A stretch of DNA of 44,827 nt from Candidatus Zixiibacteriota bacterium (GTDB taxonomy: Bacteria; Zixibacteria; MSB-5A5; UBA10806): assembly GCA_024641335.1 (NCBI GenBank), contig JAHEDG010000011.1, forward strand, positions 1 through 44,827. Direction: 5' to 3'. The translations under genes were made by a program, and so were the position numbers. The notes below the pieces were generated by a model that worked only from the letters and a program-made list of their open reading frames with translations, searched no databases and was not told where the DNA came from. This document shows, in pieces, positions 7,309 through 41,864 of this stretch. Position 1 is the stretch's first letter; every line of letters starts with the position of its first letter.

Positions 7309-7380
7309 CCTGATTCTCCCTTAACTCTTTCCTTAATTTCCTCCGGGATAATTAAAGCCCCCATTTTCAAAATATCCCCT

Positions 7381-7409
7381 TATTAAGTGAAAAATTTCTC
7401 TAATGTCAA
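7381..7409 (-). promoter_or_regulatory. sigma-70-type promoter for sucC operon
   Basis: On the minus strand TTGACA (7404-7409) is followed after 17 bases by TTAATA (7381-7386). This predicts a start near 7375 and a leader of about 67 bases before sucC. The -35 box overlaps the stop codon of cca. The 13-mer CTTGACATTAGAG also occurs at the pth promoter. Confidence 0.6.
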
Positions 7410-8761
7410 GATCGCTTTTGATTTAATATTTCTTTTCCCGCTTTTAATAAAATTCCACGGCTGTTTTGCGATGGATCGTCGAGAACTATCTCCAATAATC
7501 CGTATAAAATCAGCCCGACCAGGGGGCCTTCCGGGATTCCGAATTCAGATTTGATATCCTCGCCGCCCACCGCTAAGTCTTTTAACCCGAAGGGCGCTTT
7601 TTTGGCAATCTCCGATTTAATCCGGTTTTCGAAATCATCCACTTCGGCCGGATCCTGGCCCATTCCCTGGGCAATAATATCCGCGCGTCGAAGATCCAAA
7701 AGATCAAAGATAAGATCCTGCCCCACGTTGCGAATTAATCTGCGCACCCCCTTATCGCCGGCCTGGTCGCTGTACATATGCTTTGATACCAGAATGGAGA
7801 CCTGATCGATCAGATCGTTGGAGTAACGAAGCTCTTTCATGATCCTACCGGCCATCCTGGTCGACAGGCGATCATGGCCATAAAATGTCGCTCCATTGTC
7901 GGTCAGTTCTCTGGTCGGCGGCTTGCCGAGATCATGAAACAGGGCTGCCAGCCGAATGTTCAGTTTCCTGGGGGCGTTATCAACGCAAACCATCGTATGA
8001 TCGAATACATCCCAACGGTGGTATCCTCCGGGCTGAGCGACTCCGGCACAGTGAGCCAGGTATGGCATAATCCGTTGCAGTATACCGATTTCAAGTAAAT
8101 AGCGGAACCCTATAGACGGCTTATCCGCCCACAGGAGCATTTTATTGAGTTCTTCGGCGATCCTTTCCGGAGAAACCGAATCGATCAGGGAGGCGTTCCG
8201 GCTCATTTCCCTGAGGGTTTCTTCCTCAATCCGGAATTCGAATCGGGCGGCAAACTGGGCGCCGCGAAGTATACGCAGAGGATCTTCGCCAATAGCCTCG
8301 GGGAATACAATACGAATTAATTTGTCAGCCAGATCGACCTGCCCAGCGTAGGGATCGATAATCTTTCCCGACGGTATCTCTCTGGCCATGGCGTTTATAG
8401 TGAAATCGCGGCGTTTGAGATCGATCTCCAGCGGCAGGTGCGGATCGTAATCGACCGCGAAATCACGATGGGCCTGCCCGGTGGATTTCTCCGTGCGGGG
8501 GATAGCGAAATCCGATGTCTCCCCGCCTCCCCTAAGTGTGAATTTGATGACCCCGAACGACTTGCCTACTATATCGACCCGCCCGAACTGTCGCAGGATG
8601 GACATCAAATCATCGATTTCTATCCCGGTAACCAGATAATCCCGGTCCTTGAATTCTATTTCGGGATGAATCAGGGAATCGCGCACCGACCCGCCGACCT
8701 CGTAGAGCCGGCCGCCGCTGTTGATTTTGCTGATCAGATTTTCAGGCAGTAAGTATTTCAT
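7406..8761 (-). CDS. cca: CCA tRNA nucleotidyltransferase / poly(A) polymerase family with HD domain
   Basis: 451 residues. The nucleotidyltransferase head has GGSVRD (23-28), the metal aspartates D39 and D41 in DRDYLV, RRDFTINA (117-124) and RILR (163-166), which is the class II layout. An HD phosphohydrolase domain follows (FDHT near 255, FHDLGK at 275-280). It adds or repairs the 3' CCA of tRNAs; the HD domain may trim 2',3'-cyclic phosphate. Related proteins act as poly(A) polymerases, so the split of activities is uncertain. The gene ends inside the sucC promoter. Confidence 0.9.
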   Translation of the reverse strand: MKYLLPENLISKINSGGRLYEVGGSVRDSLIHPEIEFKDRDYLVTGIEIDDLMSILRQFGRVDIVGKSFGVIKFTLRGGGETSDFAIPRTEKSTGQAHRDFAVDYDPHLPLEIDLKRRDFTINAMAREIPSGKIIDPYAGQVDLADKLIRIVFPEAIGEDPLRILRGAQFAARFEFRIEEETLREMSRNASLIDSVSPERIAEELNKMLLWADKPSIGFRYLLEIGILQRIMPYLAHCAGVAQPGGYHRWDVFDHTMVCVDNAPRKLNIRLAALFHDLGKPPTRELTDNGATFYGHDRLSTRMAGRIMKELRYSNDLIDQVSILVSKHMYSDQAGDKGVRRLIRNVGQDLIFDLLDLRRADIIAQGMGQDPAEVDDFENRIKSEIAKKAPFGLKDLAVGGEDIKSEFGIPEGPLVGLILYGLLEIVLDDPSQNSRGILLKAGKEILNQKRS

Positions 8762-10286: not shown

Positions 10287-11671
10287 TTACTCTTTTTCTT
10301 GCCTGCTTTCTTTGTCGTCTTTTTAGCCGTCTTTTTGGCTTTCTTCTTTTTCCCTTCGCTGAAGAAATCATCGAGAACGTCGCTCAGACCGGGCATGCCG
10401 ATCTCCTGAAGATCGTAGCTGACCCTGACGGTCGGTTTTTTGATTTTTATCAGTTTGCCCAGATCGATCGGGGTAGCGATAATCACCGAATCGCAGTCGG
10501 TACGGTTAATCGTTGTTTGGAGGTCTTTCATCTGCTCCGGGCCGTAACCCATTGCCGGCAGAAGAGTCCCGATCTCGGGGTATTTTTTGAAGGTAGCCGA
10601 AATCGAAGCCACCGTATAGGGTCGGGGATCGACCAATTCCGACGCTCCGAACTTCTGGGCGGCTACTACTCCGGCTCCATAGGTCATTTCGCCGTGGGTT
10701 AATGTCGGGCCATCTTCGACTACCAGCACCCTTTTACCCCTGATCTGATCGGGATCGTCCACAAATATAGGAGAAGCCGCGTCTATAACAGTCGCCGCCG
10801 GGTTAAGCTGACGGATTGATTCTCTTACGGTTTCAATCCCCTCGAACGGAGCGGTATCGATCTTGTTGATAACGACCACGTCGGCCATTAGCAGGTTGGT
10901 CTCGCCGGGATAATAAGTTCTTTCGTGGCCGGGACGATGAGGATCGACTACGGTGATGTAGAGATCCGGCAGGAAAAAGGAAAGATCATTGTTCCCGCCA
11001 TCCCATACTACCACGTCGGACTCGGCCTCGGCGTTTTTGAGTATCACTCCGTAATCCACTCCGGCGTAAACCACCTGTCCCCGCATGATATGAGGCTCGT
11101 ACTCCTCGCGCTCCTCGATTGTGCATTCATGCTTATCCAGGTCCTTGAGTGTCGCGAATCTCTGGCAGATCTGTTTGGTCAGATCGCCGTACGGCATAGG
11201 ATGACGGACTACCGCCGCCTTATATCCCATATCTTTGAGAACCTCGCAGACTTTTCTGGTGGTCTGCGATTTACCCGAACCGGTTCTGACCGCGCAAACA
11301 GCGATGATCGGTTTGGTGGATTTCAGCATCGTAGGAAGGCCGCCGACCAGCTTGAAATCGGCCCCGCAGGCGTTAACCAATGCCGCCTTCGACATGACAT
11401 AGTTGTAGCTGACATCCGAATAGGAAAAGACCACCTCGTCCGCTCTATGTTTGGCGATCAGCACGGCCAGCTGAGACTCATCGTGAATTTGAATCCCTTT
11501 CGGATATAGCTTCCCGGCCAACTTCGCCGGGTATTTCCGGTCGTCGATATCCGGGATTTGCGTAGCGGTAAAGGCTACGACATCGTATGCTTTATTATCA
11601 CGGTAGAGCAGGTTGAAATTATGGAAATCCCGTCCCGCGGCGCCCATTATGATGACTTTTTTTCGTTTCAT
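10283..11671 (-). CDS. predicted GTPase, cyclic 2,3-diphosphoglycerate synthetase-like (COG2403 type), with lysine-rich tail
   Basis: 462 residues. The N-terminal 120 residues form a Rossmann-like domain starting KKVIIMGAAGRDFHNF. A P-loop follows, AVRTGSGKS (127-135), then VVVWDGGNNDLSFF and VVINKID, a GTPase-style base-recognition motif. This arrangement is that of the predicted GTPases related to archaeal cyclic 2,3-diphosphoglycerate synthetase. The true reaction in bacteria is not established. The last 23 residues contain 14 lysines. The gene is co-translated with carbamate kinase (ATGA overlap), suggesting a shared pathway. AGAGG lies six bases before the ATG. Confidence 0.75.
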   Translation of the reverse strand: MKRKKVIIMGAAGRDFHNFNLLYRDNKAYDVVAFTATQIPDIDDRKYPAKLAGKLYPKGIQIHDESQLAVLIAKHRADEVVFSYSDVSYNYVMSKAALVNACGADFKLVGGLPTMLKSTKPIIAVCAVRTGSGKSQTTRKVCEVLKDMGYKAAVVRHPMPYGDLTKQICQRFATLKDLDKHECTIEEREEYEPHIMRGQVVYAGVDYGVILKNAEAESDVVVWDGGNNDLSFFLPDLYITVVDPHRPGHERTYYPGETNLLMADVVVINKIDTAPFEGIETVRESIRQLNPAATVIDAASPIFVDDPDQIRGKRVLVVEDGPTLTHGEMTYGAGVVAAQKFGASELVDPRPYTVASISATFKKYPEIGTLLPAMGYGPEQMKDLQTTINRTDCDSVIIATPIDLGKLIKIKKPTVRVSYDLQEIGMPGLSDVLDDFFSEGKKKKAKKTAKKTTKKAGKKKSK

Positions 11672-11826
11672 AAAAAACCTCTGACTAAAAAGAACATTTC
11701 TTTCATCTGGTTGAATTACAGCTATGCGAATGCGTTTGAGAAAATTAAGCTCGGCCGTAAAATGGCCTTATAAAAGGAGAAAATCAGTGATCGAAAAGTT
11801 TTATTGACCAGTAAATCATATCTCCA

Positions 11827-11854
11827 ATATTATATCGGCATGAATAAATGTCAA
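11827..11854 (-). promoter_or_regulatory. promoter for GTPase-arcC operon
   Basis: TTGACA (11849-11854), a 16-base spacer, then TAATAT (11827-11832) on the minus strand. A perfect TATAAT overlaps at 11829-11834. The leader to the GTPase start would be about 150 bases. Confidence 0.55.
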
Positions 11855-11944
11855 TATAATTCGATAGACTAACCTTTTATTATAATTAATGTTATGGTTG
11901 TAATGCCGTCGACGTGAAGTAAACTGCAGAGAACTGGAATCGCG

Positions 11945-12067
11945 ATTCCCGCAGATATATCTCTTTAGCCCTGCCCAGGCGATTTTAGCCAGAAATGGCC
12001 CAACTGTTTCGTAACGTATTGATGATGAAATGGTTATGATGCCTGCTTGAACGCCGCGACGATATTC
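11945..12067 (-). pseudogene. decayed 3' end of a second CPA2-type antiporter gene
   Basis: On the minus strand the translation GVQAGIITISSSIRYETVGP then FLAKIA matches the C-terminus of the intact antiporter at 14487-15656 (VILSSVIVYEAVGPFLTKIA). A one-base deletion near 11979 breaks the frame just after this match. Stop codons lie upstream near 12100. A hand alignment of 70 columns with bases from 14489 gives 56 identities. Ten of the 14 differences are G/C to A/T transitions relative to the intact gene, as expected of unselected DNA. Confidence 0.7.
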
Positions 12068-27789: not shown

Positions 27790-29136
27790 CTAATCGGCGG
27801 TTTGGGATTTATTTTCCATACCGAGGGCTTTCATCTTCTTATATAGGTGGCTTCTCTCCAGTCCGAGGATCTCAGCCGCCCTGGTCATGCTCCTATCCAC
27901 CATAGCGAGAGTTTTGCGGATATACTCTCTTTCGAACTGCTCGCAGGCGGCCTTGAGGGTTCCCCCCGGCGCCGATCCCGCTATTCCCGGTATCAGATTT
28001 TCCACCTCGGAGGCGTCAATAATTTCGAGAGGCGACATGATGACGATCCTCTCTATATAATTAGCCAGTTCCCTGATATTGCCGGGATAAGAATAACCGG
28101 AGAGAAGTTTGACCGCCGATTTATTAAAATTCTTCACCGGACGGCCTCTCCGACCGCAGAATGAATCGGAGAAATGCTGAATCAAAAGAGGTATATCATC
28201 CCGACGCTCCCGCAGAGGGAGAATCTCTATCGGCAATACCGCCAGACGATAATACAGATCCTCGCGAAACCTCCCATCCTCGATCATCTTCTTAAGATCC
28301 CTGTTGGTCGCGGAGATTATTCTGGCGTCGGTTTTTATTTCTTTGGTCCCCCCCAGCCTGGTGATCACACCTTCTTCCACCGCTCTTAAAAGCTTGGCCT
28401 GAGTTTTGGCGGATGTTTCGGCAATTTCGTCGAGGAATAAAGTTCCCCCGGCGGCCAGTTCGAACCGTCCCGGCTTAGATTTCACAGCACCGGTAAAGGC
28501 TCCCTTTTCGTACCCGAAAAGCTCGGATTCTATAAGATCATCGGGCAAGGCGGCGCAGTTAACCGCCATAAATGGGCCGTTTCGCCGGCCCGAGGCTTCA
28601 TGGATCATGCGGGCGGCCAATTCTTTGCCGGTCCCGTTCTCCCCGGTGATCAAGACCCTCGATTCTTCCGGCGCGACCTGGGAGATAACCCGTTTCAAAT
28701 CCTCAAGCACTTTTGACCGACCCACCAGTCGGTCGCTAACCCCAAGCTGTTGACGAAGATCGTCTCTTTCGGTTTCTAACCGTTTTAACCGGGAGATATT
28801 AGCTAAAATGACCTCTATTTTATCCAGGGATAACGGTTTCTCCAAGAAATCATACGCCCCTGATTTCACCGCAATAACCGCTGTTTCGATTTCGGCATGG
28901 CCGGATATCATGACACATTCGATTGACCAGTATTTTTTCTTTATCAAATTGAGTAGTTCCAGCCCGTCTCGATCCCCCAGCCAGACATCCAACAAAGCGG
29001 CATCGATCGATTCATCGAGAATCGCCTCGGCCTGTTCGAAGGATCGGGCTGTGATAACATCGTGTCCGGAACGGCCCAGGGCCGAACTCAATGAGGAGAG
29101 AATATTGGATTCGTCATCCACTATCAGTATTCTCAA
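27790..29136 (-). CDS. NtrC/NtrX-type sigma-54-dependent response regulator
   Basis: 448 residues in three domains. A receiver domain carries acidic residues D7 and D8 and phospho-acceptor Asp50. An AAA+ sigma-54 activator domain (about 135-370) has Walker A GENGTGKE, the sigma-54-contacting GAFTGA loop and LFLDEIAE. A C-terminal Fis-type helix-turn-helix includes TRAAEILGLERSHLYKKMKA. Phosphorylated by the kinase encoded directly upstream, it should activate sigma-54 promoters. The targets are unknown. Its ATG overlaps the kinase stop by four bases. Confidence 0.93.
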   Translation of the reverse strand: MRILIVDDESNILSSLSSALGRSGHDVITARSFEQAEAILDESIDAALLDVWLGDRDGLELLNLIKKKYWSIECVMISGHAEIETAVIAVKSGAYDFLEKPLSLDKIEVILANISRLKRLETERDDLRQQLGVSDRLVGRSKVLEDLKRVISQVAPEESRVLITGENGTGKELAARMIHEASGRRNGPFMAVNCAALPDDLIESELFGYEKGAFTGAVKSKPGRFELAAGGTLFLDEIAETSAKTQAKLLRAVEEGVITRLGGTKEIKTDARIISATNRDLKKMIEDGRFREDLYYRLAVLPIEILPLRERRDDIPLLIQHFSDSFCGRRGRPVKNFNKSAVKLLSGYSYPGNIRELANYIERIVIMSPLEIIDASEVENLIPGIAGSAPGGTLKAACEQFEREYIRKTLAMVDRSMTRAAEILGLERSHLYKKMKALGMENKSQTAD

Positions 29137-30890
29137 ACAGGCCTCCCGGGCGATTTCCCCTTTTCTCTAACAGGCAGTTCGATCACAGCGGCGACCCCTC
29201 CTTCTGCGGAATCGGTCAGCTTTATTTTGCCGTCATGCTCGGCGATTATTTTTTTAACAATTACTAATCCCAGTCCCGATCCGCCCGGCTTGGTGGTGAA
29301 ATAGGGAGTAAAGAGATTCTCCCGGGCGTAAGCGGTCAACCCGGGGCCGTTATCGGCGACTATCAACACCGCCTTGCGTTCAGAACTCATGGTTCTTACG
29401 GTCACCCTGCCGCCCGGAGCGATCGCTTCCAGGGAGTTTTTAATCAGATTCGCCGCGGCTCTTTTGATCTGGTCTTTATCGGCATATACCGGTAAAGGCA
29501 TGTTCGAAAGATCCGATTTTAGAAGCCCGGCGTTTTTCTCTTTGATATAAAGATCCAGGGTTGTCGAGACTATATCGTTGAGATCGGAATACTCAGGGCG
29601 CGGCGCCGGAAACCTGGCGAACTCGGAGAACTCCTCGACAATCCGGGTCAAAGACTGCACTTCCTGCAGCACGGTTTTGGTTGACCTGTCGAAATCCCGT
29701 GAAAATTCCGGGTCGGAACTGGAATATGAGCGGCGCAGATCCTCGATGGCGATTCGTATCGGAGTCAGGGGATTTTTGATTTCATGGGCTACCTTGCGGG
29801 CCATCATAGTGAAAGCCGCCAGTCTCTCTGTTTCAATCAGCTTTTTACGATAATCCTCGAGATCGCCGGCCATATCGTTGAAGGTATTAATCAGGCTGCC
29901 GAGTTCTCCCCGTCCTTTGTAATCGACCCTGGCGGAAAAATCTCCTTCGGCCAGCCTGTCGGCGGCCCAGGTAAGTTTAAAAATCGGTTTTGTGAATCTG
30001 GCGGCAAAGAGATAGCCGAATATCAACGCCAGGAAAAGTCCTCCGACCGCGAATCCTCCGTAAATCAATCTCATATTATCAAAAAGGACATCCAGATCCT
30101 GGGTGGAAACACCCATCAGAAGATCAGCTATCTTCACTCCGGAAAAATTCATCAGGGGGTAACGGGAAAAAGAATACCAGAGCCCCTCGAAACGGGTTCG
30201 GTAGGTTTGTTTATCCTGAAGATACAGCAGAAGTTCTTCGGGTTTGCCCGGAAGAGTTTTGGCCAGAAGGTCTTTGCCTTCGACCAGAAGTATTTCCGCT
30301 CCCGAAAGTGTTTGTAGATCGTGGCAGAAATCATCGTCGAGAAACTCCCCGCCGGCGATAACCCCGATCAGCTGGCTGTCGTTATACCATACCGGGGCCA
30401 GTCCCATGGCGGCCAGGACATCATTGCCGGCGAATGTGACTTTATCCAGGGATTGTACTTTTTGCCCTTTCATGGCTTCGGCGAATACCGGATCGTTACC
30501 GAGATTGTCGCCGAAAAGCCCGGGATCGTGGCCGCGAGCCAATACTGTCCCGCGGTTATCAATGATAGTCAGAAAATCGAGATTAAGCAGTTTCTTTGTT
30601 TCCGCGGCGAAAGCGATCAAGCCCTGCTGATCGATAAAACCGTTTCTATCCTTGACCAGAAGATAACGTGTTAAAACCGGATCGCCCGAGAGGTGGCTCA
30701 TCTGGGAGAGGATATCGCTGCCCTTGCGTTCATAAAGGCTGACCGCTCCGCCATAGACGCTGTTCAGCTTCATATCGACAAGGGACAGCCGCTGGGAGTT
30801 GGCGTATATATTTAAGGAAATAAATATAGCGAACATAGGCAAAACCGCCGCCACGATCAGCAGGAATATGATTCGTCCGCGAAGCCTCAT
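29133..30890 (-). CDS. NtrY-like sensor histidine kinase
   Basis: 585 residues. Membrane helix 1 spans about 6-28 and helix 2 about 276-298, enclosing a 245-residue extracytoplasmic sensor of Cache-like appearance (FLTIIDNRGTVLARGHDPGL, VIAGGEFLDDDF). HAMP (299-350) follows. His369 in VAHEIKNPLTPI is the phosphorylation site. N-box NLIKNSLEA and G-boxes ADNGPGLT and GGSGLGLVIVKK make up the ATPase. It overlaps the genes on both sides by four bases, so it is translated together with the solute-binding protein and the regulator. Confidence 0.93.
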   Translation of the reverse strand: MRLRGRIIFLLIVAAVLPMFAIFISLNIYANSQRLSLVDMKLNSVYGGAVSLYERKGSDILSQMSHLSGDPVLTRYLLVKDRNGFIDQQGLIAFAAETKKLLNLDFLTIIDNRGTVLARGHDPGLFGDNLGNDPVFAEAMKGQKVQSLDKVTFAGNDVLAAMGLAPVWYNDSQLIGVIAGGEFLDDDFCHDLQTLSGAEILLVEGKDLLAKTLPGKPEELLLYLQDKQTYRTRFEGLWYSFSRYPLMNFSGVKIADLLMGVSTQDLDVLFDNMRLIYGGFAVGGLFLALIFGYLFAARFTKPIFKLTWAADRLAEGDFSARVDYKGRGELGSLINTFNDMAGDLEDYRKKLIETERLAAFTMMARKVAHEIKNPLTPIRIAIEDLRRSYSSSDPEFSRDFDRSTKTVLQEVQSLTRIVEEFSEFARFPAPRPEYSDLNDIVSTTLDLYIKEKNAGLLKSDLSNMPLPVYADKDQIKRAAANLIKNSLEAIAPGGRVTVRTMSSERKAVLIVADNGPGLTAYARENLFTPYFTTKPGGSGLGLVIVKKIIAEHDGKIKLTDSAEGGVAAVIELPVREKGKSPGRPV

Positions 30891-32659
30891 TTGCCCGATC
30901 CTATATGGGCGCCCCGCAAATCGATATACCCTTCGGGCGTCGGCTTAAGTCCGCCAATATCGCTTTTTGATATCAGGGTCAGATGAGGCTGATACAGGAT
31001 TATAGCCGGAGGCTCGATGGACAACGCTTTGGAGAGACCCAACGAAACGCTCCTGCGGCGGCCGGGATCGGTTTCCGGCCGGAATTTTTCCAGAAACGCC
31101 TGGAACGCTTCATCATCGTAATAGAGAAAATTGGTCTGCCCGGCAAGCCTGTAGCTATATAATGGATAAAGCAGGCAGTCGGGATCATGCGACACCGGAT
31201 TATAATATGTGAGATACAAATCGAGATCGGACATGATCCGTTCCTCATCCAGGGTCGAAAGATCGGCTTTCTTTTCGGTGATTTTCACGCCTCTGTTCTG
31301 AAGCTGGCCGGAAATATAGCCTGCTATTTTATTCAACGCGGGAAATCTCGAATCTATATATAAGGTGGCCGCCCTGGGCAATTTATCGATGGTATTAAAA
31401 TAGTAATCGGCGGAATCGGGGAAAGCGCTGTAATCAGAATCGATATCGAGATCCCGAAATCCGGGAACCGGGCTTTCAGGCATCCTCGCGGAACTTCCCA
31501 AAAGTACCCTGATAATCGTCTCTCTGTCCAGCTGAAACGAAAGAGCTTTGGAAAACCGGCTGCCCTTTTGGAATTTTCTTTTGCTGTTTACGCCCAGAAT
31601 CGCGCAGTTGTTGGTCTGAGAGATGGAGGATGTAATTTCCCGGTTGGAGAAAATCCTGGGCGGGGGTTCACCCAGAATCGAGACCAGGTCGAGGTTACCC
31701 AGTTCAAGTGATAGAGCCGCTTCCTCGGCGCTGCTGAATTTTAAAAATATCAGGCTGTCGAGATAGGCTGATTTGCCGGACTGTTCGAAAGGCTCGAGGG
31801 CCAACTCGCGGCTGTTTCGCCATTTAATCTTATACTGACCCGCTCCTATAACATATCCTCCCGGCTGAGCCAGCCCGGGACGGGGGATAATATACCCTGC
31901 AGGTCCGGCCAGGTAATCCTCGAAGGCCGGAAAAGATCTCCTGAGAGTTATGGAAATAGTCTTCTTATCGATCAGGAATATTCCGGGGATCTCGTTTCTG
32001 TTGCCGTGACGATACTCCTCGGCGCCGCGGATTTCCAGCACGAAGCAGGAGGCCGGAGTCAATCTTGATGAGCGAGCCAGCTGTTGTATGGAATAGAGTA
32101 CGTCCGATGACTCCACCGGACGGCCCGAATGGAATCGAGCGTCAGGAGATATATAAAATGTATAGGTCAAATCTCTCACTTCGAAAGTCCCGCAAAGATC
32201 GGGAACAATCGACCCGTCGCCGTTTCTGGTCAGAAGTCCTCTATGGATCAAGCGTGACACCATCTTATCGTCGGGAGTGTCAATCGAGGACGGTTCCAGA
32301 TTCAGATCGCTGAAATAAGGGATATTCAGGAACCCTCCTTTGGCGGAAGGGGCTACATACAAACGGATTTTGGCGGAAAGATCATCGGAATAATATATCA
32401 ACGAGAACAAAGATGAATCGATCTCTTCCGATCGCGAGATATTCCGGTCCGACCAGGCTATCCTGCCAGTGGCGATAATCCTCTGGTCGTAATAGATTTC
32501 GAAATTTTCTCCCGGAGTTACGCCGTCTTCGGTACCGGCGCTAAAATAGACGACGTTCGGTTTTTTATAAACGATATCACATTTTATATAGTCCTGAGTA
32601 TCGGCCAGTAGAATTTTGCCGATGGACAGACAAAACAGCAATAGTATCCATTTTTTCAT
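30887..32659 (-). CDS. family 5 extracellular solute-binding protein (peptide/nickel type), signalling-associated
   Basis: The start chosen is ATG 32659, giving the signal peptide MKKWILLLFCLSIGKILLAD and 590 residues; a GTG at 32674 is the alternative. After an unusual 95-residue N-terminal part rich in beta structure (IVYKKPNVVYFSAGTEDG), a DppA/OppA-like domain begins (LIHRGLLTRNGDGSIVPDLC, FYISPDARFHSGRPVESSDV). No ABC permease genes follow. Instead the stop overlaps the start of a membrane histidine kinase gene. I infer a ligand-sensing role for the kinase, not transport. Confidence 0.82.
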   Translation of the reverse strand: MKKWILLLFCLSIGKILLADTQDYIKCDIVYKKPNVVYFSAGTEDGVTPGENFEIYYDQRIIATGRIAWSDRNISRSEEIDSSLFSLIYYSDDLSAKIRLYVAPSAKGGFLNIPYFSDLNLEPSSIDTPDDKMVSRLIHRGLLTRNGDGSIVPDLCGTFEVRDLTYTFYISPDARFHSGRPVESSDVLYSIQQLARSSRLTPASCFVLEIRGAEEYRHGNRNEIPGIFLIDKKTISITLRRSFPAFEDYLAGPAGYIIPRPGLAQPGGYVIGAGQYKIKWRNSRELALEPFEQSGKSAYLDSLIFLKFSSAEEAALSLELGNLDLVSILGEPPPRIFSNREITSSISQTNNCAILGVNSKRKFQKGSRFSKALSFQLDRETIIRVLLGSSARMPESPVPGFRDLDIDSDYSAFPDSADYYFNTIDKLPRAATLYIDSRFPALNKIAGYISGQLQNRGVKITEKKADLSTLDEERIMSDLDLYLTYYNPVSHDPDCLLYPLYSYRLAGQTNFLYYDDEAFQAFLEKFRPETDPGRRRSVSLGLSKALSIEPPAIILYQPHLTLISKSDIGGLKPTPEGYIDLRGAHIGSGK

Positions 32660-32688
32660 GACGCCATCTCTCACCCCTTTGCTGCGGT

Positions 32689-32873: not shown

Positions 32874-33620
32874 TCAAACTCCGGCGATTTTGATCAGGTA
32901 CATAATAAAGATTCCCAAAACCAGCCAGATAAAGGGGGAGGCCTTTTCTTTATCCACATGAAACGCTTCCGGCAATAGATCGAGGGTAGCTACATATAAA
33001 AAAGTACCGGCAGTGATTCCGGTGGGAATCGCCAGACTGACATCGCTCAATGACTTCAGAAAGGGAATCGATATCAAAGCGCCCAGCGGGGTCATTATAG
33101 AGAATAACAGAATATAACCCATGGTTTTCTTTATGGAAAAGTTCGCCAGTCTGAATATGGTGGCCAGCGAAAATGATTCTATCCCCTTATGAGCGATAAT
33201 AGCGATGAAAATAACCAGGCCCAACTCCGGTTCGATCATCCCTACACCCATCACAAAACCGGCGGTTATGGCATGGACCGACAGGCCAATGAGCGCGATG
33301 ATCCCGACGACCTCGTGTCTATGGTCGCAATTGTCGCCGCAATGCACTTTATGGCTTCCCAGAAGGATTCTCTCTATCAAGAGCACCAGAACGAATCCGA
33401 GAAGCACCATACCGCTGGCCAGATCTCCGGAGCCTTGAGTCAGTGCGTCGGGAAGAAGATGCAAAAAAATCGCCCCCAGAAAAACTCCCGCGCCAAAAGC
33501 TATAAAAAGATGAAGCTGGCGATCGCTCCATTTCCCAAACAGCGGCGGTAACGCCCCTATAACCGCCACCAGAAATATTCCCAGCGTATACAGAATCAAT
33601 GTCGTCGAATAGTCCGGCAT
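32874..33620 (-). CDS. ZIP-family metal transporter
   Basis: The start chosen is ATG 33620, preceded by GGAG; the longer frame to 33647 adds an unlikely N-terminus. The protein has 248 residues and about eight membrane helices. The metal-site helices are SVHAITAGFVMG and AHKGIESFSLA, the H-x3-D/A-G and H-K-x2-E patterns of ZIP proteins. A cytoplasmic loop rich in His and Cys (SHKVHCGDNCDHRHE) lies between helices 3 and 4. It probably moves zinc or another divalent metal into the cytoplasm. It follows rpiA by 35 bases. Confidence 0.9.
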   Translation of the reverse strand: MPDYSTTLILYTLGIFLVAVIGALPPLFGKWSDRQLHLFIAFGAGVFLGAIFLHLLPDALTQGSGDLASGMVLLGFVLVLLIERILLGSHKVHCGDNCDHRHEVVGIIALIGLSVHAITAGFVMGVGMIEPELGLVIFIAIIAHKGIESFSLATIFRLANFSIKKTMGYILLFSIMTPLGALISIPFLKSLSDVSLAIPTGITAGTFLYVATLDLLPEAFHVDKEKASPFIWLVLGIFIMYLIKIAGV

Positions 33621-33655
33621 TCCTTCTCCAATATTCAGGTGGAACAAATAATCGA

Positions 33656-34369
33656 TCAGCCGTTATTTTTTTTCAGGTGCTTAATGCCGTCCATTCCTGC
33701 AATAATTACATCGGACGCGATCCCCAGAAACAGCCCGTGTTCGACAATACCGGCTTTAACACTCAATTTCTCCGCCAATTCAGCGGGATTGTCTATGGGT
33801 CCGAAACGGCAATCGAGAATATGATTTCCCTCGTCGGTGCGGAAAGGTTTTCCTTCGCTCATTTCGCGAACTTCCACTTTCGCTCCCAGAGAGACTATAT
33901 ATTCGGCCACCGGCCTCATCCCGAACGGTATGACTTCGACCGGAACAACCCATTTGGTTCCCAGCTTATCGCTGGTTTTCGAATCATCGGCGATTATGAT
34001 GACCTGCCTGGACGCTTCGGCCACGATTTTCTCACGGAGCAACGCTCCGCCGCCTCCTTTGATCAGATTGAGATCGGGATCTATCTCATCCGCGCCGTCG
34101 ATAGTCAGGTCAATGACGGGATGATCCCTAAGGGTGGTCAACGGGATACCATTGCGCCAGGCTATCCGCTCGGTTTCTTTTGATGTGGGAATAGCTATTA
34201 TATCGGTTAACTCCCCTCTGACCAGCAGCTCCCCCAGCCTGTTCATGGCGAATACAGCGGTGGAACCTGTGCCCAGCCCCAGGATCATTCCGGAATTGAC
34301 AAATTCCACGGCTCGTTCCGCGGCTGATCTTTTCAGTTCATTTATCCGGTCGATCTCCGGATTTCCCAT
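33656..34369 (-). CDS. rpiA: ribose-5-phosphate isomerase A
   Basis: 237 residues from ATG 34369, which has GAGGG four bases upstream; the frame runs on to 34420 without such a site. The motifs GLGTGSTA, PTSKETE, IDGADEID, KGGGGALLREK and FGMRPVAEYI define RpiA. It interconverts ribose-5-phosphate and ribulose-5-phosphate in the pentose phosphate pathway. Confidence 0.96.
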   Translation of the reverse strand: MGNPEIDRINELKRSAAERAVEFVNSGMILGLGTGSTAVFAMNRLGELLVRGELTDIIAIPTSKETERIAWRNGIPLTTLRDHPVIDLTIDGADEIDPDLNLIKGGGGALLREKIVAEASRQVIIIADDSKTSDKLGTKWVVPVEVIPFGMRPVAEYIVSLGAKVEVREMSEGKPFRTDEGNHILDCRFGPIDNPAELAEKLSVKAGIVEHGLFLGIASDVIIAGMDGIKHLKKNNG

Positions 34370-34560
34370 AATTCCCTCTAGACTCGCTCCCCGTAAAATA
34401 ATTATAGGCGGTAATTCCATAATCAGTCAATAACAGTTCTATAAATTATTTTTATGATACGGCTATAGACGGGATATCTTATCAAAATAGCTGGAAAGGG
34501 ATAACTGAACGCCGCGGCCCTATAGGCTTTCGAAAGAAATTCTTCCGGGGAAAATCCGGA

Positions 34561-37065
34561 TTACTTTCCGAGCTCATCCCGAACAGCCATCGCTAATTGC
34601 GTTATCCTCAGAGGTTTTTGAACGAGCGCCCCGGCTCCGAGATTCAAAGCCTCATCTATCCTGGTCGACCTGGCAAAACCGGAAATCATAATAGCTTTCT
34701 GGCCTGGATTGATTTCCCTGGCGCGGCGAAACGTCTCGGTTCCGTCTATGCCATGGGGCATAAAAATATCCAGGATCAGTAGATCAAGCGGATTTCCTCT
34801 GATAAAGTCAATGGCTTCCTCGCCGCTGCTGACAGCTGCGGCGGCATATCCCAGTTCCCGCAGCAATTCCAAGATCACATCTCTTTGTATAGGATCGTCA
34901 TCAACCACTAGAACTCGTTGGCCCGCTCCTTGTATTTCGCTAATTTCCGCTTTTTCAGCCTTGACACGAACGACAGGGAAATAGAGGTGAAACGAAGTCC
35001 CTTTACCCTGAACGCTCTGGCAATCGATATAACCGTGATGCTCTTCGATCACGGAATGAACGACGCTTAAGCCCAACCCCGAACCTCTGATCTGTTCAGC
35101 CGTTTTCGTGGAGAAAAAAGGATCATATATTCTGGCTATATTTTCCGGCGGGATGCCTATACCGGTATCCGTTACGGAGAGTTTGATATATTTGCCTTTG
35201 GGTACCCGGGCGCGTTCAGGAGAGAGCTGATCAACATAATAATTCTCGGTTTTAATTGTCAGACGACCAATATCCTCCATCGCTTCACGGGCATTGGAAA
35301 CAAGATTGGTCAGGGCCCGCTGGATCTGAGACGAAGCGCATTTGACCGGGGCCAGTCCTTTATCCAAAACAGTTTCTACGGCTAAAGTCGACGGGAAATC
35401 GTCAAACTGATTTATTACCTGGATTACGATGTTATTGAGATCGAGCGGCTCGGGCATATTGTGCCCTCCCCTGGCCAGAGCTAACAATTGCTGATTGATA
35501 TCGGCCATTCGTTCAGCGGATTTTTCAATTGCCCCCGCGTATTTCTGTACTAATCCGTTCTCGGGAAACAGATCGCGGATAAAATGAGGATAAGCCATTA
35601 TAGGTGCCAAAAGATTATTGAAATCGTGCGCCACCTGCCCGGCTATCTTACCGGCTGTTTCCAGCCTGTGAGCCCGACCGGCGAATTCGAGCAAACGCCG
35701 CGATTCTGAAAGATCCTTGAATATCAATACCGCGCCCACTATCCGGCTATCGCCGCTTCTTATTGGAGCGATACTCTGAGAAATGGTCCGCTCCCTGCCG
35801 TCACGGGAGATCAGGGTCAAATCCTCCTCGCGCGAAACGATCTCGCCGTAGCCGATTACCCGTTGGATAAAATCCGGGGAGATATGTCTGGATTTTGAAT
35901 CGACACAATTGAATATTTCGTTTATATTCTCTCCGACGGCAGTATCCGATAGCCACCCGGTATATATTTCGGCGGCCTTATTCATATACGCGATTTTGCC
36001 GTAGTTATCGATCGATATAACTCCTTCGCTGATAGCGTCAAGAGTAATATCCAGTTTTTCTTTTTCCGAGGCCAAAAGCCCTTCGGCATATTTCATGTCG
36101 GAGATATCATGGATGATTCCCTGATATTCCATCACCTGACCATCGCTATTAAATCTCGGGGACGATGTCAGCAGACAATCGACAGTTCGGCCGTTTTTCC
36201 GGCGAAGTTTCACTTCGAAATTACTGATACGGCCGTTTTTGATACTTTCCCGGATGAACTTGCGCCAGTCGAGATCGGAGGCAAACAGCTTCATGGCTTT
36301 CATACCTGTCATTTCTTCCAAGGAATACTCAAACAACTCCAATCCGGATTGATTCATCATGGTGATTTTGCCGTCAGGCGAGACATTAAAAATGGCATTC
36401 GATGAACCCTCGAACAAAGCCCGATATCTGGCCTCGCTTTCACGCAGATAATTCTCGGCGATTTTACGTTCGCTGATATCTCTTAAAATACCCAATATTC
36501 CGATGCAGCGATTGCGTTCGTCGTATAGAAACGCAGTTTTCAGATCGGCCCAGACTATTGAGTTGTCAATTTTCAGATACTCCAACTCCTGCGCGCTGGA
36601 CCGGAAAAGACTCAGCTGCCCGTCCAATGCCAAAGCCAGTTCCCGATCGATCAGTTTTTGGATTTTTTCCTGTGATTCCGGAGTCAGAGAGCTAAACAGT
36701 ATCCCCGATTTCGCCTCATCCGCGTTATACCCGAGAAGTTCGTAAACCGACGGACTGACATAGGTTATCCGGCGATTTAAGTCCATTATCCAGATTACGT
36801 CATTGACGTTCCGGACCAGGATCTCGCGTTGTCCAAGGCTCCGAAAGAGCGTCTGATCATCGAGTTTCCCGCTGATTGCCGGCCGTGATATAAAGATGTA
36901 ACCAAGAAATACGCAACATAAAATGAAAATAATTATTCCGCTGAAAATAGCGCCCGGATTGGATAACTCAGTGAAATATATCGGTATGAAAAAGCCTGCA
37001 AAAAAAACAGATAAGATCGCCACAAAAAGAAACAGGCTTATAGTGCCACTATCGGTTTTTTTCAT
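34561..37065 (-). CDS. hybrid sensor histidine kinase with three PAS domains and a receiver domain
   Basis: 834 residues. Two membrane helices (about 11-30 and 38-60) have almost no periplasmic part between them. PAS domains follow at about 82-205, 210-330 and 338-455 (ISERKIAE and ISDMKYAE mark PAC ends). His480 in VAHDFNNLLAPI is the phospho-acceptor. The ATPase has NLVSNAREAM and GSGLGLSVVHSV. The C-terminal receiver has Asp766 in LLILDIFMP. It probably senses an intracellular or membrane-related cue. GGGGGAAAG lies directly before the ATG. The single-domain regulator upstream may be a partner. Confidence 0.92.
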   Translation of the reverse strand: MKKTDSGTISLFLFVAILSVFFAGFFIPIYFTELSNPGAIFSGIIIFILCCVFLGYIFISRPAISGKLDDQTLFRSLGQREILVRNVNDVIWIMDLNRRITYVSPSVYELLGYNADEAKSGILFSSLTPESQEKIQKLIDRELALALDGQLSLFRSSAQELEYLKIDNSIVWADLKTAFLYDERNRCIGILGILRDISERKIAENYLRESEARYRALFEGSSNAIFNVSPDGKITMMNQSGLELFEYSLEEMTGMKAMKLFASDLDWRKFIRESIKNGRISNFEVKLRRKNGRTVDCLLTSSPRFNSDGQVMEYQGIIHDISDMKYAEGLLASEKEKLDITLDAISEGVISIDNYGKIAYMNKAAEIYTGWLSDTAVGENINEIFNCVDSKSRHISPDFIQRVIGYGEIVSREEDLTLISRDGRERTISQSIAPIRSGDSRIVGAVLIFKDLSESRRLLEFAGRAHRLETAGKIAGQVAHDFNNLLAPIMAYPHFIRDLFPENGLVQKYAGAIEKSAERMADINQQLLALARGGHNMPEPLDLNNIVIQVINQFDDFPSTLAVETVLDKGLAPVKCASSQIQRALTNLVSNAREAMEDIGRLTIKTENYYVDQLSPERARVPKGKYIKLSVTDTGIGIPPENIARIYDPFFSTKTAEQIRGSGLGLSVVHSVIEEHHGYIDCQSVQGKGTSFHLYFPVVRVKAEKAEISEIQGAGQRVLVVDDDPIQRDVILELLRELGYAAAAVSSGEEAIDFIRGNPLDLLILDIFMPHGIDGTETFRRAREINPGQKAIMISGFARSTRIDEALNLGAGALVQKPLRITQLAMAVRDELGK

Positions 37066-37470
37066 CTTTCCCCCAGGATCCCGGTTGCATTCTGTAGATT
37101 TTTCACGGAACTACAGACAAATCGTAAATTGTTTTTTTGTTCTTATATAAGCCCATTATAATTATCATTCCGAATATCCGGCTCTTTTGCGTTGGCGGCC
37201 GGAGAAATCGGAGAAGGCCTGCGGTACTGATCAAAATATCTATAACTAATTTGACAAACTGTTTTTCAGAAACTATTTTTTGATTACCGATGCACTCGGG
37301 CATTGCTGATATCCACTGAAAGGGTTTTTCTCTATTGCCGTTAATAACTCGCCTGAATACCGATTACGGAAATAATTGCGATAAAATTCGGTTACTCGGC
37401 AGGCAAAAACGCGTCGCGGTAGTTCCCCTCCAGGAAAATAAATCGGCCATGAGGCTGTAATTGCATGAAA
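37066..37470. other. 405-base intergenic region between kinase and response regulator genes
   Basis: No convincing gene is visible. A near-consensus plus-strand promoter lies at 37251-37279 with only antisense or non-coding DNA after it. The remainder is AT-rich leader of the hybrid kinase gene and 3' flank of the regulator gene. Confidence 0.5.
37251..37279 (+). promoter_or_regulatory. orphan near-consensus promoter
   Basis: TTGACA (37251-37256), a 17-base spacer, then TATTTT (37274-37279). Transcription would run through 190 non-coding bases and then antisense to the response regulator gene, so it may make a small or antisense RNA. Confidence 0.4.
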
Positions 37471-37872
37471 TTAATTTATGTCCACGGCCTCGCTTTCCGC
37501 TTTTTCGAGCGCGTTTTTGATCTTTTCCACCATCAGATCGACTTTGAATGGTTTATAAACGAATTCGTTAACCCCGGCCAGCTTGTCTTTTATCCGAGTC
37601 TTTTTCAAGTTTACTCCCGACATAAGAATAATCGGAATGCGAGAATCGATTTTTCTTATTTTCCGAGCCAAACTCAAACCGTCATCCGTAGGCAGGCCGA
37701 GATCTATCAGGCTCAGATGAATTCTGGTTTTATCGAGCTTTATGAGCGCTGCCTCGCTGTCGCCGGCCACAACCGGTTTATGCTCGAGCGATTTTACAAT
37801 ATCGACTAATAGATCGCGGATAGACTTTTCGTCCTCCACTATTAGTATATTTCTCTTTGACGATTTAGACAT
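37471..37872 (-). CDS. single-domain response regulator (CheY-like)
   Basis: 133 residues, a receiver domain only. It has E13 and D14 in LIVEDEKS, phospho-acceptor Asp57 in LSLIDLGLP, the switch residue in LMSGVN and Lys in FVYKPFKVD. There is no output domain, so it acts through protein contacts, perhaps in a phosphorelay with the hybrid kinase encoded next on the strand. A charged C-terminal helix follows the domain. Confidence 0.9.
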   Translation of the reverse strand: MSKSSKRNILIVEDEKSIRDLLVDIVKSLEHKPVVAGDSEAALIKLDKTRIHLSLIDLGLPTDDGLSLARKIRKIDSRIPIILMSGVNLKKTRIKDKLAGVNEFVYKPFKVDLMVEKIKNALEKAESEAVDIN

Positions 37873-38132: not shown

Positions 38133-39308
38133 TTATCCTCGCAGTACAACCGCGATTCCCTGGCCGCCTTCAACCGGAATAGAAACCGCCCCGTATTGAG
38201 CGTCGCGACGGTTCATCTCATAGACCAGAGTCAACGCCATACGAGCTCCGGAAGCCGCCATTGGGTGCCCAAAGGCTATCGCCCCGCCATTGACGTTCAC
38301 CTTTTCCCGGTTCAGATTCATCTCTTTTTCGCAAACCAGGTACTGGGCGGCGAAACCCTCATGAATTTCCAGCAGATCCAGATCGCCGATCTCTATCCCG
38401 GATTCTTTTACTGCGTTACCCAACGCGGCTACCGCCCCCATAGCCACCTGGTCGGGATCTACCCCCGCTATTCCAAAAGAAGCCAGTCGCGCTCTGGGCC
38501 GCAATCCAAGCTGGCCGGCTTTCTCGGCCGACATTATTATCAGAACCGCGGCGCCGTCAGCCAGACTCGACGAGTTGCCCAAAGTTATTCCGCCATCATG
38601 TCTGATTGCCGGTTTCATTTTGATCAGTTCCCTGATAGAAATTTCCCTGACATAATCATCCAGCCAGGTAGCCACTTCATTGCCTCGGCTATCTTTCAGC
38701 ACCACAGAAATAGTTTCTTCTTTCAGAATTCCCATATTGCGGGCGTTTACCGCCGCCTGGTACGAGCGTAACGCGTATTCATCCTGTTCTATGCGGCCGA
38801 TATTGAATTTTCGAGCCATCTTCTCAACTGCCGTCGCCAGGGTCATTCCGTTGTACGAATCCCTGACGACCATATCCAAAAGATCCTCGATCATGGAATT
38901 TCCATAATAAGACATTCCTCGAGCGCCCCTGATTACGTGCGGCGTCTGGGACATATTCTCTATTCCTCCGACCAGGCAGATATCCGCTTCCCCCAACTGA
39001 ATCGTCCTGGCGCCCTGAATAAGGGCCAGCAGTCCCGAACCGCTGATCATATTGACGGTAACAGCCGGAACTGAAAACGGGATACCGGCCTTTAAGGCCA
39101 CATGTCTGGCGGCGTAATGAGAATCAGCCGATGTTTGAAGAGCGTTGCCGAGAATCACCTGATCGATCTGATCTCCTCTGAGACCGCAGCGCTCAATAGC
39201 TCCCCTGGCCGCGATGGCTCCGAGATCATTGGCGATAACATCGTTAAAGGAACCGCACAGTCCTCCAAATGGCGTCCTGGCCCCGTCGATTATGACAACT
39301 TCCTTCAG
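38133..39308 (-). CDS. thiolase-family protein lacking both catalytic cysteines, CTG start
   Basis: An apparent start at 39158 would remove 50 residues of the thiolase N-terminus. The frame continues upstream as KEVVIIDGARTPFGGLCGSF to a CTG at 39306-39308, preceded by GGGAGG; a stop lies just upstream, so CTG is the only start that keeps this end. The product has 391 residues and its numbering falls in step with Zoogloea thiolase. His348 (AFGHPMAASG) is kept and 316 is His in HEGFAAQ. Position 89 is Ser (VNMISGSGL) instead of the acylated Cys, and 378 is Pro (SIPVEGGQG) instead of Cys. Normal Claisen or thiolysis chemistry is therefore unlikely. Confidence 0.88.
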   Translation of the reverse strand: MKEVVIIDGARTPFGGLCGSFNDVIANDLGAIAARGAIERCGLRGDQIDQVILGNALQTSADSHYAARHVALKAGIPFSVPAVTVNMISGSGLLALIQGARTIQLGEADICLVGGIENMSQTPHVIRGARGMSYYGNSMIEDLLDMVVRDSYNGMTLATAVEKMARKFNIGRIEQDEYALRSYQAAVNARNMGILKEETISVVLKDSRGNEVATWLDDYVREISIRELIKMKPAIRHDGGITLGNSSSLADGAAVLIIMSAEKAGQLGLRPRARLASFGIAGVDPDQVAMGAVAALGNAVKESGIEIGDLDLLEIHEGFAAQYLVCEKEMNLNREKVNVNGGAIAFGHPMAASGARMALTLVYEMNRRDAQYGAVSIPVEGGQGIAVVLRG

Positions 39309-39331
39309 CCTGCCTCCCGATCGCGGTTCAT
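39305..39331 (-). promoter_or_regulatory. eight-codon upstream ORF ending on the thiolase CTG start
   Basis: ATG at 39329-39331 opens MNRDREAG and its TGA (39305-39307) overlaps the CTG start by two bases. The GGGAGG used by the CTG lies inside it. It could couple re-initiation at the rare start codon, or be chance. Confidence 0.3.
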
Positions 39332-39400
39332 ATCAAAACTCTATTCACAATAACCCGGCTGCCCGGCGGTAATTCCCCGTAATATTCACAGCCGTTGTTG

Positions 39401-39519: not shown

Positions 39520-40290
39520 ATGAAAAATTTCGAGAAACTTGTGGAGATAATGGCTACACTGCGAGGTCCCGGCGGATGCCCATGGGATAGAGAACAGGAC
39601 CATGAATCATTGAAGCCATATCTGATCGAGGAAGCCTACGAGGTTATCTCGGCGATCGAAGAGGGAAATGACGAACAGCTTGCCGAAGAATTAGGTGACC
39701 TGTTGTCGCAGGTAGTGATGCACGCCCAATTGGCCAGGGAACGAAAAGCCTTCGATATAGAGACTGTCGCCGGGAAAATCGCCCTCAAGCTGACAGTCCG
39801 TCACCCGCATGTCTTCGGCGATAAGCGGGATCTCACATCGCGGGAAGTCCTGCACAACTGGGAAAAAATCAAACATGAAAATGCCGAAAACCGAGACTAC
39901 TCGGTATTGCAGGGTGTGCCTGTTTCGCTTCCGGCCCTGCTCAAGGCGTTTCGGGTACAGGAGAAAGTCGGTCGTTACGGCTTCGACTGGCCCCGAACCG
40001 AAGATGTAATCCTCAAGATCAGAGAGGAAATTGCCGAGTTCGAAGAGGCTCTGGAATCAGGTGAAAAACAGAAACAACATGACGAATTCGGCGATTTGCT
40101 TTTTTCTCTGGTGAATCTGGGACGGCATGTCGGTTTGCAGGCGGAGGAGGCTCTCAACGGCTCGATACGAAAATTCACCGCCCGATTCCAGTATGTCGAG
40201 GATAGACTCCGGGAAAAAGGACGAAGCCTGGCCGATTCCAATCTCGAGGAGATGGACATTCTATGGAATGAGGCCAAGAAACAGAAGTGA
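39520..40290 (+). CDS. mazG: nucleoside triphosphate pyrophosphohydrolase MazG
   Basis: 256 residues with two MazG domains. The first has GGCPWDREQDHESLKPYLIE, EEAYEVISAIE and ELGDLLSQVVMHAQ, the metal-binding EExxE...ExxD pattern. The second repeats it (EEIAEFEEAL, DEFGDLLFSLVNLGRH). LQGVPVSLPALLKAFRVQEK links them. It hydrolyses non-canonical or excess NTPs to NMP and pyrophosphate. It is divergent from the thiolase-like gene and ends before a strong terminator. Confidence 0.96.
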   Translation: MKNFEKLVEIMATLRGPGGCPWDREQDHESLKPYLIEEAYEVISAIEEGNDEQLAEELGDLLSQVVMHAQLARERKAFDIETVAGKIALKLTVRHPHVFGDKRDLTSREVLHNWEKIKHENAENRDYSVLQGVPVSLPALLKAFRVQEKVGRYGFDWPRTEDVILKIREEIAEFEEALESGEKQKQHDEFGDLLFSLVNLGRHVGLQAEEALNGSIRKFTARFQYVEDRLREKGRSLADSNLEEMDILWNEAKKQK

Positions 40291-40364: not shown

Positions 40365-41864
40365 CTATTGCTGCGGAACCGGTTCTATCTCAACCCGACG
40401 GTTTTTCTGTCTGCCTTCGGGCGTGGCGTTATCTCCAATGAAGTATTTCGGATCCTCGCCATATCCATGAACAGTCATCCTATCGGCCGCGATCCCTTTA
40501 TCCCGAATGTAGAGCATCACAGCTTCGGCTCTTTTGGTCGAGAGTTTCAGATTTCCGCGAGCCGACCCTAAAGCATCGGTGTAACCATTGACCTCGATCT
40601 TGAGATTCGGATAGGCGTTCATCGATTCGACCACGTCGTCGAGTATCTTACGGGCCGGAGCGTCCGGCTGGAATGATCCGGCGGCGTACTGGATATTCAG
40701 AATTATTTTTTCCACTAACGGTTTGGCTTTGGGACATCCCAACTCATCCACCTGCACACCCTCGGCGGTTTCGGGACATTTATCTATACCGTCGGCTACT
40801 CCGTCTCTATCGCCGTCGAGAGCGATACCGTTCTCGTCGACAATCGCTCCGCGCGGCGAATTCATCTCCTGATCCTTGAAATCCGGAACGCCATCTCCAT
40901 CGGTATCCAGCGGACAGCCTCTTTCGTCGACTGTGACATCAAGAGGAGTATCTGGACATTGGTCGATACCGTCATAAACACCATCCTGGTCGGTATCCAG
41001 AGGACAGCCGATAATATCGACAAAAGCGCCGGCCGGAGTATTATCACAAGCGTCGATACCGTCGAAAACAGTGTCGCCATCGGAATCCCTGGGGCAACCA
41101 TACTCATCGACCAGCGCTCCTTTGGGAGTATCCGGACACTGATCGAATTTGTCAGAGATCCCATCCTTATCGCTGTCGGGAGTTCCGGTGATGAAGTAGG
41201 TAAGTCCGATAGACGGCTCCAAGTATCCGCCGAACGGCCTGGTTTTGAAATCGGTCCAGTCGACCGCTCCGTAATATCCGGGCAGATCGTCGGCCGAAAT
41301 ACTTGCCAGATCGTAGGTCAGTTTTCCCTGCAGATCCAGAGAGAACCTGTCGCCCAGCCAGAAATTGATCCCGGCGCCGACTTTTCCTCCCAGATCCTTG
41401 AAACTATAGGTAGTGCCGGTGGTTTGACGTTCCAGAGTCCACATGTCTATTCCAAGACCGGCCAGCAGATACGGCTGAACATTTCCCTGGGTCAGGAAAT
41501 AGTACTGCCCCTCCAGGCTGAACCTGATCCCGGTCATTTTCACGCTGGCGTTGTCGGCTTTGTTTAGCTTGAAGGTCTGATCGCTGGCAGCGGTAGTGTC
41601 GTCATAGGTAATATTGTAAGCTCCGGAGAGATTGATCACAAAGCTCCTATTGAAACCGTACTTGATATGAGGACTGATATTCCAGCCCATCATGAAATTC
41701 TCGAAGCTGCCATTATAATTGAATTCGGAACCTTTAAACATCGGAGCGATAACCGGCCCTCGAATTCCAGCTCCGAGCCGCTTACTCCATTCGACCGCCT
41801 TTGAAGTTCCTGTCCAACCCAAGATCACTATCAAAAAACCGATAAGAGCTTCCCTGCTTTTCAA
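40365..41864 (-). CDS. OmpA-family outer membrane protein with thrombospondin type 3 repeats
   Basis: 499 residues from a TTG start with AGGAGG upstream. A signal peptide (about 1-23) precedes a beta-barrel (about 25-225, alternating strands such as YYFLTQGNVQPYLLAGLGID). Next come about five calcium-binding TSP3-type repeats of the form DSDGDTVFDGIDACDNTP (about 228-385). The C-terminal peptidoglycan-binding OmpA domain has VNGYTDALGSARGNLKLSTK followed by RAEAV. It anchors the outer membrane to the cell wall. It follows trxA by 16 bases and ends at the strong terminator. Confidence 0.94.
   Translation of the reverse strand: MKSREALIGFLIVILGWTGTSKAVEWSKRLGAGIRGPVIAPMFKGSEFNYNGSFENFMMGWNISPHIKYGFNRSFVINLSGAYNITYDDTTAASDQTFKLNKADNASVKMTGIRFSLEGQYYFLTQGNVQPYLLAGLGIDMWTLERQTTGTTYSFKDLGGKVGAGINFWLGDRFSLDLQGKLTYDLASISADDLPGYYGAVDWTDFKTRPFGGYLEPSIGLTYFITGTPDSDKDGISDKFDQCPDTPKGALVDEYGCPRDSDGDTVFDGIDACDNTPAGAFVDIIGCPLDTDQDGVYDGIDQCPDTPLDVTVDERGCPLDTDGDGVPDFKDQEMNSPRGAIVDENGIALDGDRDGVADGIDKCPETAEGVQVDELGCPKAKPLVEKIILNIQYAAGSFQPDAPARKILDDVVESMNAYPNLKIEVNGYTDALGSARGNLKLSTKRAEAVMLYIRDKGIAADRMTVHGYGEDPKYFIGDNATPEGRQKNRRVEIEPVPQQ

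Follow-up and report, generated by a model that had tools for sequence, protein, structure and literature searches.

Canonical acetyl-CoA C-acyltransferases (TIGR01930), such as ThlA and the thiolase of Zoogloea ramigera, combine a nucleophilic Cys89 (CxS motif), a general-base Cys378 with the oxyanion-hole Gly380 (CxG motif), and the pair made up of the oxyanion-hole Asn316 (NEAF motif) and His348 (GHP motif). Relatives devoid of the nucleophile have been described. For Mycobacterium smegmatis thiolase-like protein 1 (MsTLP1), thiolase activity was undetectable and CoA binding weak (PMC3406046), and Ltp2, Sal and the trypanosomatid SLP use a YDHF/YDCY-type motif, with a DUF35 partner in the case of Ltp2 and Sal (PMC12329534). 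For inactive subunits in CoA-thioester pathways, BbsCD, reported to have pseudoenzyme subunits in a paper cited by PMC10818641, serves as a precedent. A literature search pairing ‘Zixibacteria’ with ‘thiolase’ found no paper. Here, we describe, from one family of these uncultured bacteria, a homolog of thiolase, an enzyme of fat metabolism, in which both catalytic cysteines are replaced; the replacement is real, belongs to a family-wide event, and has probably given rise to a young thiolase-fold pseudoenzyme.

The gene, hereafter the pseudo-thiolase gene, was found in a stretch of 44,827 nucleotides (the window; contig JAHEDG010000011.1 of the Candidatus Zixiibacteriota assembly GCA_024641335.1), which belongs to the genome designated G000 (Table 1). 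Its minus-strand frame terminates at 38133 and runs open for 399 codons, the preceding stop lying just beyond 39332, and the 391 codons assigned to the protein contain neither stops nor frameshifts. Thiolase_N (PF00108, 7.6e-66) and Thiolase_C (PF02803, 9.8e-40) are both present in about 390 residues with a two-core fold, and the match to TIGR01930 (E=3.9e-113) reaches 378 bits for a cutoff of 240.55, a score with which automatic annotation would label the protein an active acetyl-CoA acyltransferase. The alignment with Clostridium acetobutylicum ThlA spans residues 1–389. The AlphaFold2 (AF2) model, computed from 26 aligned sequences, is of high confidence (pLDDT 92, pTM 0.92) and its best PDB matches are thiolases (TM 0.96–0.97, 1.4–1.6 Å), so that the thiolase fold is retained in the predicted structure. 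The least certain stretch of the model comprises residues 121–150, which we take to be the region of the tetramerization/cover loop. The residue numbering parallel to that of the Zoogloea enzyme, which the initial annotation obtained with a restored N-terminus, is borne out by alignment to the Zoogloea and Clostridium thiolases, as are the complete fold and the frame open up to the stop at 38133.

Table 1. Features of the pseudo-thiolase gene and of its conserved surroundings in the window.
Feature	Coordinates	Strand	Remarks
SBP_bac_5 protein, histidine kinase, sigma-54 response regulator	27790..32674	-	synteny with G003
ZIP transporter	32874..33647	-	syntenic, common to both sister genomes
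rpiA (ribose 5-phosphate isomerase A)	33656..34420	-	syntenic, common to both sister genomes
Pseudo-thiolase gene	38133..39308	-	391 codons + stop; full-length thiolase fold
Codon 380, GAA (Glu)	38169..38171	-	replaces oxyanion-hole Gly (oxyanion hole 2)
Codon 378, CCG (Pro)	38175..38177	-	replaces general-base Cys; Ser (G001) / Ala (G003)
Codon 348, CAC (His)	38265..38267	-	conserved in window; Asn in both sister genomes
Codon 316, CAT (His)	38361..38363	-	replaces Asn of NEAF; Asn retained in sister genomes
Codons 287-289	38442..38450	-	VMG fingerprint loop changed to QVA
Codon 89, AGC (Ser)	39042..39044	-	replaces nucleophile Cys; Gly in G001 and G003
Candidate start CTG	39306..39308	-	presumed initiation; GTG/TTG/ATG at this site in orthologs
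GGGAGG, Shine-Dalgarno-like	39313..39318	-	4 nt before CTG; predicted from sequence

The frame contains no ATG, GTG or TTG codon after the upstream stop and before residue 1 of the pseudo-thiolase. At the homologous position, G001 carries GTG, G003 TTG and G024 ATG, and the window carries CTG, a codon from which only weak initiation occurs in E. coli (PMC11497404). The mechanically assigned GTG start at 39158, yielding 341 residues, was rejected because it would cut the first 50 residues and with them strand 4–11 and helix 26–40 of the AF2 model. The candidate CTG also overlaps, as CTGA, the stop codon of a short ATG frame (8 codons; 39306-39332, minus strand; ATGAACCGCGATCGGGAGGCAGGCTGA), an arrangement resembling ATGA-type translational coupling. 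Promoter and terminator scans returned little above shuffled sequences.

Ser89, Pro378 and His348 were read by the initial annotation as they stand in the sequence. Its description of an intact HEGF motif at 316–319 was wrong, since 36/36 intact orthologs carry NEAF at this place, and Asn316 to His and Ala318 to Gly are thus two more losses. In all, four of the five thiolase fingerprints (set as in PMC3406046) are broken in the window protein. The reference set consisted of 36 more distant full-length orthologs, drawn from Zixibacteria, Acidobacteria, Chloroflexi, Planctomycetes and others, all of which keep Cys89, Asn316, His348, Cys378 and Gly380. Across these orthologs, 104 positions were conserved at ≥97% and defined as near-invariant. 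The window protein departs from them at 25 and the two sister proteins at 15 each, compared with 0–6 departures when each intact ortholog was left out in turn. The catalytic fingerprint loops of the window protein keep only 7/15 near-invariant residues, and these loops are significantly enriched in changes in the window copy (p=0.008), with no significant enrichment for the sister genus (p=0.22). In the Nb3 tight-dimer strand region (residues 60–86), 14/15 near-invariant residues are kept in the window and 15/15 in the sister genus, a contrast that on its own amounts to a trend (p 0.11–0.12). As both Cys89 and Cys378 are missing, the established chemistry (PMC3406046) leads one to expect little or no thiolase activity.

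The closest relatives share this condition. The two sister genomes, G001 and G003, belong to the same family and to one other genus, and their orthologs, 56% identical to the window protein, also lack both cysteines. The residues found in the window, G001 and G003 are Ser/Gly/Gly at position 89, Pro/Ser/Ala at 378, His/Asn/Asn at 348, His/Asn/Asn at 316 and Glu/Gly/Gly at 380, and the motif at 316–319 reads NESF in the sister genomes vs HEGF in the window. Each lineage has hence lost one member of the Asn316/His348 pair, the window Asn316 and the sister genus His348. Ser89 and Pro378 are therefore not kept by orthologs. The initial annotation would have been overturned by close relatives with both cysteines; close relatives lack them, and they are found at class level and farther away (the class and phylum searches covered the same 133 genomes). 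The two canonical thiolases of the window's own genome, on contigs C63 and C41, keep the Cys/Asn/His residues, the C41 sequence ending after Cys378 in that alignment. In a protein tree computed with IQ-TREE, the three proteins without the cysteines group as a single clade (support 100/99) nested in the intact orthologs, and 11 near-invariant positions are altered in all three copies where 3.6 would be expected (p=1.5e-5). The simplest reading of these sequences is that both cysteines were lost once, on the family stem.

Base-call or assembly error as the source of the odd codons is hardly conceivable in this light. The window does belong to a 98-contig assembly and its start codon is unusual, but two separately assembled genomes of the same family are also devoid of both cysteines, and each of the 25 departures is a substitution that leaves the reading frame unbroken; an error is conceivable for the CTG only.

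In the third genus of the family (g3), the gene is absent from G002 (96% complete) and from the incomplete G004. A search for the site through rpiA returned nothing in this genus and the region was located via the SBP5 gene; at the ZIP-SBP5 site of G002, both flanking genes are present with no thiolase remnant. The gene is therefore dispensable in the family.

Where it is present, the gene is under purifying selection. Between G001 and G003, dN is 0.081 and dS 1.35, i.e., an omega of 0.06 (NG86) or 0.068 (GY94 codon ML, omega=1 rejected), with values of 0.03–0.04 for two intact paralogs of the same genomes. Synonymous sites on the window branch are saturated, so dS was set to the two paralog values (0.84 and 1.23), giving branch-averaged omegas of 0.27 and 0.18, respectively, with omega=1 rejected in both cases (2dlnL 232 and 382); for the paralogs, the corresponding branch gives 0.07 and 0.04. 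In protein distance, the branch of the window copy measures 0.74 vs 0.106 and 0.125 for the paralogs, i.e., it evolved about six times faster than these active enzymes. Constraint on the window branch is weaker than for an active thiolase but by no means lost.

The length of this branch, the CTG at the sole start position, the 25/104 near-invariant positions lost vs 15 in the sister genus, and the absence of the gene from the third genus would all suit the main rival reading, decay under way in the window lineage though not in the sister genus, where a protein non-catalytic since the family ancestor would now be poorly or not translated and drifting. We nevertheless regard decay as unlikely, since omega=1 is strongly rejected on the window branch, the model shows a confident full fold, and constraint in the sister genus is strong. 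Moreover, a neutral frame of equal length would be expected to have picked up about 5 stops once it had diverged by 0.2 substitutions per site, and the pseudo-thiolase gene has 0 over 391 codons. Because the omegas are branch averages, a very recent release is possible. The verdict of the initial annotation, changed function and not decay, accordingly stands at the family level, with an omega of 0.07 in the sister genus and omega=1 rejected on both branches, and is less secure for the rapidly evolving window copy, whose only candidate start is CTG.

A further alternative is that the site was remodelled for new chemistry in the same pocket, be it a Ser-based transferase or hydrolase, a retro-aldolase or a decarboxylase. 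The fold and the frame of the CoA pocket are retained, active sites have been repurposed elsewhere in the thiolase superfamily, as in the Ltp2 and Sal aldolases (PMC12329534), and in the window protein Ser89, His316 and His348 could in principle combine into a new site. The five catalytic positions, however, share no common replacement among the three copies, in contrast to the altered motifs of MsTLP1, which are conserved among its homologs (PMC3406046), and to the new motifs of the Sal and Ltp2 aldolases, likewise conserved within their own group. Nor is there a Tyr-Asp-His/Cys motif of the Ltp2/Sal type, and the sole DUF35 gene of the genome lies on another contig, with other thiolase-like genes. 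We thus consider new chemistry quite improbable. For the Ser-based enzyme put forward in the initial annotation, we found no support, since position 89 is Gly in both sisters and the replacements differ between genera; its other suggestions, an acyl-CoA-binding protein or a partner subunit, may still apply. Such differences argue for lost catalytic constraint on a kept scaffold, against a new active site.

The surroundings of the gene offer a second line of comparison. After the pseudo-thiolase, G001 and G003 share the order phosphoglucose isomerase-like gene, rpiA, ZIP transporter and SBP5, which G003 continues with a histidine kinase and a sigma-54 regulator; synteny of the SBP_bac_5 gene with the window thus extends to G001 as well. 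The window keeps the order from rpiA to the sigma-54 regulator and has a response regulator and a hybrid kinase instead of the phosphoglucose isomerase-like gene. The latter, labelled from its sequence and without a family search, lies at 6970-8661 of locus L047 and 10353-12044 of locus L048 in the sister genomes. The kinase and regulator genes that occupy this place in the window (34561-37872, minus strand), between the pseudo-thiolase and rpiA, encode a hybrid histidine kinase of the PAS type and a response regulator with a single domain. On the other side, mazG is divergent (39520-40290), and near it lies a gene for an OmpA-family protein that carries thrombospondin type 3 repeats together with a beta-barrel domain (40365-41864, minus strand).

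Intact orthologs have other neighbours. In six class-level relatives (G009, G017, G024, G025, G031 and G032), a gene for an ADP-forming acyl-CoA synthetase is adjacent to the intact ortholog or within a few genes of it, and in family f17 the neighbours are a 3-hydroxyacyl-CoA dehydrogenase gene and an enoyl-CoA hydratase-like gene. A fadB-partnered trifunctional complex was considered and rejected, the neighbour of the intact orthologs being the synthetase. In G000, G001 and G003, by comparison, the synthetase gene is found 4–6 kb from a different, intact thiolase. In the window's genome it clusters with this thiolase and with SDR-like and enoyl-CoA hydratase-like genes (locus L150 3453-9585; G000:C41:53452-59584), and the synthetase shares 57% identity with that encoded next to the intact ortholog of G024. 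This C41 cluster is likely the functional replacement of the ancestral pair, and the changed context fits a functional displacement of the thiolase, with an order of events that we can only reconstruct.

Taken together, we consider it probable that the pseudo-thiolase is a displaced thiolase turned non-catalytic and held by purifying selection for a non-catalytic role. It descends from a canonical acetyl/acyl-CoA C-acyltransferase, which related Zixibacteria encode near an ADP-forming acyl-CoA synthetase. In the family ancestor, the thiolase would have parted from its synthetase partner, whose gene is now near another intact thiolase, and would have lost both catalytic cysteines. What remains would be a full-length fold, probably still dimeric, that could neither be acylated by the thiolase route, for want of Cys89, nor use a second base, for want of Cys378. 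The role most likely to explain its retention would be to pair with or regulate some other protein, which might be an active thiolase or an enzyme acting on CoA thioesters, with ligand sensing in the old CoA pocket as the second choice. A more specific version, put forward tentatively and with low confidence, has a canonical acetoacetyl-CoA-type thiolase become a family-specific regulatory or structural subunit of a different CoA-thioester enzyme, e.g., an active thiolase paralog, with relic active sites that differ between the sister genera and translation from CTG in the window copy. The long window branch, the CTG-only start and the missing gene in the third genus weigh against a retained pseudoenzyme, as does the loss, in a sample of three copies in all, of conserved residues from the window copy beyond those lost in the sister genus.

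Compared with known systems, the pseudo-thiolase shares its full-length fold with the canonical acetyl-CoA C-acyltransferases, to whose solved structures it is 36–42% identical; it differs from them by the absence of both cysteines, Asn316, Gly380 and the VMG loop in the window, and of His348 in the sister genus. Like MsTLP1, it has a thiolase fold in which the nucleophilic Cys is missing and most fingerprints differ. MsTLP1, however, is a monomer carrying an additional domain at the C-terminus, and the altered motifs YSCF, GGL and NGG are conserved among its homologs, whereas the window protein has HEGF, GHP and PVE in 391 residues, no extra domain, and motifs that vary between genera. Like Ltp2, Sal and SLP (PMC12329534), it is a member of the thiolase superfamily without the thiolase nucleophile, but unlike the steroid/bile-acid aldolases Ltp2 and Sal it carries HEGF or NESF and has no adjacent DUF35 gene. 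A DUF35-dependent aldolase was rejected: no YDHF/YDCY motif is present and a search of the genome by family for thiolase-type and DUF35 genes located the sole PF01796 gene on another contig. Beside that gene are two more thiolase-superfamily genes (G000:C63:70165-73444), in an arrangement resembling a thiolase/HMG-CoA synthase complex that depends on DUF35. Proteins with a thiolase fold and no catalytic cysteine are already known, but they form ancient, divergent families. In the present case the loss is recent enough for the intact orthologs, the former neighbour, the intact thiolase now close to that neighbour and two different outcomes of active-site drift all to be visible, which makes this family a tractable case of the change from enzyme to pseudoenzyme.
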